A DNA stretch of 64,000 bases, taken from NCBI RefSeq assembly GCF_030813715.1, contig NZ_JAUSUZ010000001.1, positions 6,138,001 to 6,202,000 of the forward strand, in the 5' to 3' direction. This document shows, piece after piece, positions 30,656 to 31,334 of the stretch. Position 1 is the first letter of the stretch. Every line of letters starts with the position of its first letter. The position numbers were made by a program, and so were the translations under genes. The stretch comes from Catenuloplanes indicus (lineage in GTDB: Bacteria; Actinomycetota; Actinomycetes; Mycobacteriales; Micromonosporaceae). The notes below the pieces were generated by a model. It ran no database searches. It was given only the letters and a program-made list of their open reading frames with translations, and was not told the origin of the DNA.

Positions 30656-30892
30656 TCAGTCCTCCGGCGGCTCGCCGGGCTTGTGCCGGACGTACATCGC
30701 GTCGCCCTGATAGCCGACGATCAGCTTCTCCAGCTTGAGCATGTTGATGACCAGATTGAGCGTGCCGTACGAGACGCCGTACTCCTCCTGGAGCAGCCGG
30801 ATCGGTGGCATCTTGTGCCCGGCCGGCAGGTCTCCGCTGACGATCTTCTCCCGGATGGCGTCGTACACGCGATCCTTCTTCGACGTGCCCAT
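30656..30892 (-). CDS. Minimal GntR-type regulator (winged helix only)
   Basis: From ATG 30892 the product is 78 residues: a single GntR winged helix ([20 protein letters not shown], then [21 protein letters not shown] as the helix-turn-helix) with no effector domain. A typical GntR protein has 230 or more residues. An upstream frame could add about 22 residues. AGGAGA lies 14 bases before the start, a long spacing. The gene reads away from ligA, and the AT-rich gap holds three operator-like sites, so it probably binds there. With no effector domain it may respond to its own amount, to a partner protein or to competition. Confidence 0.78.
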
Positions 30893-30958
30893 GAATTCGT
30901 CCAATCTCCTGGCTCGCAAAGCCAAGTAGATCACCGAATTCGAATTTTGGTCAATCAA

Positions 30959-31055
30959 GTCGACGTAGTTGATCTAGTCGATCAGGCTGGTATCCACGCT
31001 GATCACCGACCAATGTCGACATAGTCGGGCAAAATTCATAGTCGACATAGTCGAT
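30959..31055. promoter_or_regulatory. Operator-like array, three GTCGAC-TAGT sites
   Basis: GTCGACGTAGTTGAT (30959-30973), GTCGACATAGTCG (31015-31027) and GTCGACATAGTCGAT (31041-31055) are same-orientation copies. The last two share 13 identical bases at a 26-base interval. A further TAGTCGATC lies at 30976-30984. The array sits between the GntR start and the ligA leader, and a -10-like TAGGCT follows at 31065-31070. Binding by the small GntR protein is inferred. Confidence 0.65.
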
Positions 31056-31077
31056 TATGTGGTCTAGGCTTACGGAC

Positions 31078-31153
31078 GTCTCTCCTGGCTCGCAACTACG
31101 GAGAGACCTGAGCCCCGGCGTCGACTCCTCCGAGCGGCGTGGCGCCGGGGCTC
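31078..31153 (+). promoter_or_regulatory. Two stacked hairpins in the ligA leader
   Basis: GTCTCTCC (31078-31085) pairs with GGAGAGAC (31100-31107). Two bases later GAGCCCCGGCG (31110-31120) pairs with CGCCGGGGCTC (31143-31153). Both stems are perfect. They lie about 180 bases before the ligA start and just after the probable promoter, so they could attenuate transcription or shape the leader. Confidence 0.55.
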
Positions 31154-31334
31154 CCCGTGCGGCCGGGGTGGCACATAGGGGCGGCTCGCCGTCCAGGTGG
31201 CTCAATGTGCCGCCCTGGCCTGTCCACATCGCGCCTGTCCGCCATCGCCATGTCGAAGGTCGAAAACGCCGGTCCTCCTCGTTACCGTGCTGGAGAAGGA
31301 CGAGGGCGCGACGAGGTGGACGGGGGACGCGGCG

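Follow-up and report, generated by a model that had tools for sequence, protein, structure and literature searches.

What does a GntR protein that consists of little more than a DNA-binding domain regulate when its gene lies divergently from ligA, the gene for the NAD-dependent DNA ligase? This arrangement occurs in Catenuloplanes indicus (contig NZ_JAUSUZ010000001.1), within the 64,000-nt stretch of DNA analysed here (hereafter referred to as the window). An initial annotation of the sequence had proposed a dedicated regulator of ligA that acts through three same-orientation sites in the intergenic gap. Here we report a computational analysis of the locus and its relatives in the family Micromonosporaceae, which points away from the ligase and towards a predicted antisense small RNA as the probable partner of GntR.

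The reading frame and a Pfam search confirmed that gntR encodes a 78-residue winged-helix protein without an effector domain, divergent from ligA, as the initial annotation had described (Table 1). The product matches the GntR domain (PF00392; residues 6 to 68, E = 2.6e-14, 53.1 bits against a cut-off of 27), and the search detected no further domain, neither FCD or UTRA nor a YtrA-type C-terminal effector or oligomerization domain. The protein is a domain-only member of the GntR family, outside the FadR, HutC and YtrA subfamilies. The predicted +1 of its mRNA lies 6 nt after a −10-like TCTACT element.

The gap upstream of gntR (30893–31075) is AT-rich, as first noted, with a GC content of 47% compared with 72% for the window. 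The 15-mer GTCGACRTAGTYGAT matches exactly at 30959–30973 and 31041–31055, and with two mismatches at 31015–31029, which accounts for the three GTCGACrTAGTyGAT-like sites; the 13-nt repeat that begins at 31015 and 31041 is likewise exact, with the reported spacing of 26. At up to three mismatches, the 15-mer has 18 matches in the whole window, compared with 4.59 expected, and none of 100 shuffles reached 18. The description of the sites as plain direct repeats had to be rejected: each is an inverted repeat, TCGAC-N3-GTCGA, and on the gntR side these dyads overlap at a 9-bp phase. In the stretch from the gntR start to the antisense copy described below, the dyads (at most two mismatches) number 5, 4, 5, 6 and 5 in five Catenuloplanes loci, where shuffles average 0.29–0.53 and the observed counts were reached by 0, 0, 0, 0 and 1 of 500 shuffles, respectively. 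Dyads at both the gntR promoter and the divergent promoter recur in all five Catenuloplanes genomes, and this conservation supports a minimal GntR with an operator array of its own. The position of the dyads suggests that GntR represses both promoters, with activation as the alternative. Across the 9.25-Mb genome, the 15-mer occurs with at most one mismatch at 21 places, two of them inside the window. We read 18 of the other 19 as loci (L017–L034); a script put 15 of these inside predicted coding frames, and the remaining three (L019, L022 and L027) read as coding by eye. The place in L033 lies inside a called frame, yet a more likely start codon follows shortly after it. We did not find a clear GntR regulon in this genome-wide search.

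A repeat finder revealed a second direct repeat, which the first reading of the sequence had missed. The left copy of TCTCCTGGCTCGCAA complements the gntR mRNA immediately 5′ of the start codon and covers the Shine–Dalgarno sequence, whereas the right copy starts 11 nt after the −10 element TAGGCT of a predicted divergent promoter and lies inside a hairpin (Table 1). A second, GC-rich terminator-like hairpin with 13 outer pairs follows, and a 90-nt fold of the predicted small RNA has an energy of −47.8 kcal/mol (z −2.91). If the gntR mRNA begins at its predicted +1, the RNA would be perfectly complementary to the mRNA start (15 of 15 nt), and this extended complementarity falls on the ribosome-binding region of the target. 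The two copies are 176 nt apart in the window, so the RNA differs from a cis-antisense RNA, which is transcribed across its target. The predicted small RNA would be transcribed between gntR and ligA. A generic promoter and terminator scan reported neither element at the small-RNA gene, and no Rfam family matched over the RNA, whether in this locus (E up to 10) or in seven related loci (E up to 0.5).

Table 1 Features of the gntR–ligA locus (positions in the window)
Feature	Position	Strand	Description
gntR	30656–30892	−	ATG 30892, stop 30656; 78-aa winged-helix GntR domain protein without effector domain
gntR mRNA leader	30905–30919	−	predicted +1 to +15, contains Shine–Dalgarno; predicted antisense target; exact repeat of 31081–31095
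Predicted gntR −10	30925–30930	−	TCTACT, preceded by TGA; from sequence
Candidate gntR −35	30949–30954	−	TTGACC; from sequence
gntR operator	30951–30981		overlapping dyads at 9-bp phase: TCAATCAAGTCGA, TCGACGTAGTTGA, TTGATCTAGTCGA; similar array in 5/5 Catenuloplanes loci
Middle dyad	31016–31028		TCGACATAGTCGG; this genome only
Perfect dyad	31042–31054		TCGACATAGTCGA; over small-RNA promoter −35; 0 mismatches in 5/5 loci
Predicted small-RNA promoter	31042–31070	+	TCGACA-17-TAGGCT; conserved in 5 loci
Predicted antisense small RNA	31076–31155	+	hairpin 31078–31107 with anti-Shine–Dalgarno loop, then terminator-like hairpin 31110–31153
Antisense segment	31081–31095	+	TCTCCTGGCTCGCAA; exact repeat of 30905–30919
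ligA	31335–33506	+	NAD-dependent DNA ligase, taken from ATG 31335; neighbour, membership in the system unsupported

Each of the five Catenuloplanes genomes has one gntR orthologue (69–100% identity), located between a PALP-family gene and ligA (neighbours other than ligA were assigned by eye in the relatives), and the leader/loop pair is kept in all five. In three of the five, the second element lies 0.6–0.7 kb from gntR, in otherwise poorly aligning DNA. Throughout, the promoter, loop, leader, end dyads and terminator are kept, although much of the intervening DNA does not align. In two of the relatives (G067 and G084), the leader and the loop are the only genome-wide copies of the exact 14-mer CTCCTGGCTCGCAA. 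Matching changes in leader and loop mark the other two: G047 has TCTCCCTGGCTCGCAA in both, with an inserted C, and G006 has CTCTTCTCGGCTCGC in both, with several changes, followed by one mismatch between the copies.

GntR-domain relatives occur in 326 of 354 Micromonosporaceae genomes (E 1e-9), full-length GntRs included. At 99 loci, nearly all of short GntRs, the 45 nt preceding the start codon were scored against the adjoining 855 nt further upstream. The set comprises the five Catenuloplanes loci, 9 of a set of 13 (leaving out L040 and L041 as duplicates, and L051 and L052 as partial or distant), 25 from the family-wide search for GntR-domain relatives, and 60 more picked by hand among the matches listed in that search, with apparent repeats skipped. 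Ten loci that duplicated others over the first 150 nt were removed, leaving 89 distinct loci for threshold counts, and single-base shuffles (5 per locus, 495 in total) scored at most 29. Scores of at least 24 were obtained on the antisense strand at 63 of the 89 loci, on the opposite strand at one, and in 0.8% of the shuffles. At a threshold of 20, the corresponding figures are 74, 20 and 11.5%, so the lower range is uninformative; 26 loci score below 24 and 15 below 20. An earlier scoring of 36 loci was done without L040, L041, L051, L052, L063, L066 and L074, of which L063, L066 and L074 are in the 99-locus survey; L063 and L066 had dropped out because of a misplaced start codon. At four close short-GntR relatives, L043 and L045 of Hamadaea, L047 and L075, no antisense copy was detectable in the 45/855-nt comparison, which may reflect loss or a different arrangement. 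Three Micromonospora loci have a second GntR-domain gene downstream of the first (L041:4185-4673, L044:4361-4615 and L046:4250-4474, with frames of 163, 85 and 75 aa).

The position and specificity of the match were analysed at 70 distinct loci scoring at least 22, including two probable chance matches: L150, for which a start was not found, and L138, whose copy lies 628 nt away and which is also present in one structure alignment. The second copy lies 90–150 nt from the start codon at 63 of these loci; the full range is 92–709 nt. A −10-like element, TG[AG]TCnnnT, was found at 63 of the 70, and at 59 the complementarity begins 3–7 nt after it, the spacing expected of pairing that starts at nucleotide 1 of the mRNA. 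Clusters diverge strongly in their pairing sequences (for example, TGGCTCGCAA, CGGGTCGCACC, CAGCTTGGCGGC, CTCGTCGGCA, CCCAGGTCTGCA and CCTGGTAGGC); among the 17 leader clusters, one is a probable chance match and two share their core with another, and the distinct pairing sequences number about 14. For 15 of the 17, no other RNA matches as well as the cognate one, and the cognate scores sum to 495, compared with a maximum of 358 in 20,000 permutations, none of which reached the observed sum.

As a comparison set, we took 39 loci, mostly of full-length GntRs, other families and plasmids, and scored 38 of them (L205 is without a start). One, the plasmid pSVH1 (L180; score 28), reaches 24 on the antisense strand, and its 14-nt repeat looks like an operator. 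Four others score 22–23 on this strand, and L195 scores 29 on the opposite strand. L008, also in this set, scores only 20 with a 10-nt exact match, yet represents the true second module of this genome described below, indicating that the score threshold misses some modules. Phages gave no match. Plasmids gave 45 records, the best place in each having less than 60% identity; four were scored, pSVH1 as above and the other three at 16–19.

The predicted RNA is structured, with a loop-bearing hairpin and a terminator hairpin, and this structure is backed by compensatory changes. Judged by eye, single folds of about 20 of 30 loci have the loop-bearing hairpin with a strong second hairpin behind it; among Catenuloplanes, the folds of G067 and G006 in one folding, and of G067 and G047 in another, deviate from the expected hairpin. 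In only 44 of 70 loci does the antisense segment have a 3′ end that is more open than the sequence around it. In six partly overlapping alignments, built on sequence before folding and counted irrespective of relatedness, compensatory pairs make up 8 of 25, 1 of 8, 10 of 20, 10 of 27, 3 of 14 and 3 of 27, the last being the Catenuloplanes alignment. Non-standard cells in the same alignments number 8 of 425, 7 of 96, 17 of 100, 21 of 297, 13 of 112 and 6 of 135, respectively. For the 12-member L012 cluster, the consensus fold is weak (−5.4 kcal/mol).

We consider it likely that gntR and the small-RNA gene form a two-gene repressor/antisense-RNA module, a reading that draws on sequence, structure and co-variation. 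The divergent RNA, of about 80 nt, would present in its first hairpin a sequence complementary to the initial ~15 nt of gntR mRNA, and pairing with the leader over the Shine–Dalgarno sequence would block GntR translation. GntR, in turn, would bind the TCGAC-N3-GTCGA dyads and, judging by where these lie, repress its own promoter and that of the RNA. Such a circuit would act as a bistable double-negative switch or, alternatively, as a tight GntR homeostat. The sequences themselves document the architecture, its conservation, the paired leader/loop changes and the covariation in the RNA, whereas transcription, pairing, repression and the direction of GntR control are inferred. The earlier suggestion of a protein that senses only its own amount is thereby recast: an antisense RNA would hold GntR translation in check, and GntR in turn probably represses the promoter of that RNA.

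The most serious competing explanation, which we regard as improbable, is that the repeated segment is a DNA site for GntR or another protein downstream of both divergent promoters, without any RNA pairing. The co-variation would then follow from the specificity of each paralogous regulator, since a DNA site could co-vary with its regulator too. Two tests of the pairing model gave it no support and agree with a DNA site: leader/loop mismatches show no G–U bias (8 preserving transitions, 14 breaking transitions and 36 transversions in 49 distinct pairs), and computed duplex energies, in which the flanks are GC-rich, favour the cognate RNA for only 8 of 16 leaders. However, the copies are direct rather than inverted relative to the divergent promoters, and opposite-strand matches are at control level. 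Moreover, one copy lies over a Shine–Dalgarno sequence and the other in a hairpin whose stem has compensatory changes, and in Catenuloplanes a separate dyad operator is already present.

The loop of the RNA also occurs in mobile DNA. Two pSAM2-type integrative elements of this genome, L092 (G000:C1:3341000-3359000) and L093 (G000:C1:2993000-3012000), both carry RepSA and GntR-UTRA genes, and an FtsK-like gene was tested in the L093 element. A hairpin at G000:C1:3350086, where a predicted 102-aa frame ends, has 18 nt identical to the loop of the window RNA, and one at 3002791, upstream of a small gene, has 15 nt; in both, the loop is set in a stem of more than 10 pairs. The genome-wide list of matches within two mismatches has 14 places (3 exact, 1 with one and 10 with two mismatches), compared with 9 for the reversed control, and includes no matching GntR leader in either element. 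The element hairpins may act in trans to silence gntR on the chromosome; alternatively, they may be orphaned RNAs of lost modules. Two further matches with two mismatches (L085 and L088; G000:C1:4711528 and 6022306) lie right before an ATG and are possible trans targets or chance. Among the 354 genomes, the loop pattern was found at 13 places in 12 genomes, two being the elements of this genome and one the module of G084; the other 10 look coding or chance on inspection and were rejected. A broader picture, of a large Micromonosporaceae family of mutually insulated switches, each with its own operator and loop–leader code, and of integrative elements that exploit this code, is tentative and somewhat short of an even chance.

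These elements bear on another reading, that the divergent hairpin is a degenerate, inactive relic of the control region of an integrative element. This loop sharing would fit it, as would the relatives of the module near phage-type integrase genes (L041 of M. zingiberis and L044 of Micromonospora sp.), but a relic is very unlikely: the loop, leader, promoter, end dyads and terminator have persisted in five of five genomes despite the non-aligning DNA between them, and the paired leader/loop changes imply selection.

The initial proposal for ligA fares worst. The operator sites and the gntR–ligA pair, whose presence in related genomes had been suggested as a check, are found in all five Catenuloplanes genomes, ligA being present at the four other loci. 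In other genera, ligA was at none of 10 gntR loci, which cover ~4 kb to either side (for L049, upstream alone). By subtraction, the terminator-like hairpin lies about 0.18, 0.23, 1.4, 1.5 and 1.5 kb from ligA in the five genomes. A dedicated GntR regulator of ligA acting through the three-site array is hardly credible: gntR, the sites and ligA do adjoin throughout Catenuloplanes, and the ~0.2 kb from RNA to ligA in this genome (G000) and G067 makes read-through possible, but the divergent promoter is followed by a predicted small RNA with a terminator-like hairpin, up to 1.5 kb and, once, a DUF222 gene (G047; L037:8134-9150) intervene, no match to the 15-mer within three mismatches lies between the RNA and ligA, and ligA adjoins none of the 10 loci in other genera. 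In Catenuloplanes, ligA is a neighbour without an operator of its own, and we have removed the tempting but unsupported claim of a dedicated DNA ligase repressor.

A second module of this genome supports the repressor/antisense-RNA reading in another setting of genes. It comprises an 82-aa GntR and its own RNA (L212:4072-5725; G000:C1:1374071 onwards), has the loop TTGGTCAGC in place of TGGCTCGCA of the window module, and has its own operator, TTGGAATG. The module is kept in all five Catenuloplanes genomes, and its GntR is 84–100% identical in the four relatives. Beyond the RNA hairpin lies a further copy of the operator, and downstream of this copy is the probable start of an operon encoding an NMT1/THI5-like binding protein and an ABC permease, and from this placement the second module may control the downstream transporter operon. 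The window's module has no third operator of that kind.

Small repressors are combined with antisense RNAs in plasmid copy control, as in CopR/RNAIII of pIP501, CopG/RNAII of pMV158 and CopB/CopA of R1, where the RNAs act on replication-initiator expression and are transcribed across their target. The proposed module resembles these pairs in its small DNA-binding repressor, its short structured antisense RNA with a terminator hairpin, and loop-first pairing near the ribosome-binding site. It differs in that its RNA would target the repressor's own mRNA, without overlap, and in that selection on two separate copies maintains the match. The phage antisense RNAs OOP of lambda (against cII) and sar of P22 (against ant) overlap their targets. 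Here, too, a short RNA would silence a regulator mRNA in a genetic switch, but from a separate gene that diverges from its target, and with a pairing sequence that has diversified over many loci. 6C RNA has a C-rich, anti-Shine–Dalgarno loop as well, but its loops are generic, whereas a stretch of ~11–18 nt matches one cognate leader in the present module, which has no Rfam match. KorSA of pSAM2-like integrative elements is a GntR repressor described as repressing pra (PMC3218068). The likeness lies in GntR repressors of actinomycete elements, and such elements carry same-loop hairpins in this genome. The window protein differs from this type in having no UTRA domain, which both full-length element GntRs tested here have, and in having the same chromosomal neighbours in five of five genomes. 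The word 'antisense' is absent from the main text of PMC3218068, and in the literature searched, at the level of titles and abstract openings, we found no description of such a GntR/antisense-RNA pair and no regulatory RNA of this kind from Micromonosporaceae.

Collectively, the module is apparently new as a family, widespread, and built from known principles. If our reading is correct, a bacterial family harbours a natural, diversified set of repressor/antisense-RNA pairs. A minimal GntR would need no effector domain, since its level would be set by an RNA rather than by a ligand. Furthermore, the ABC-transporter operon behind one module suggests that these switches may control ordinary metabolic genes besides mobile elements.
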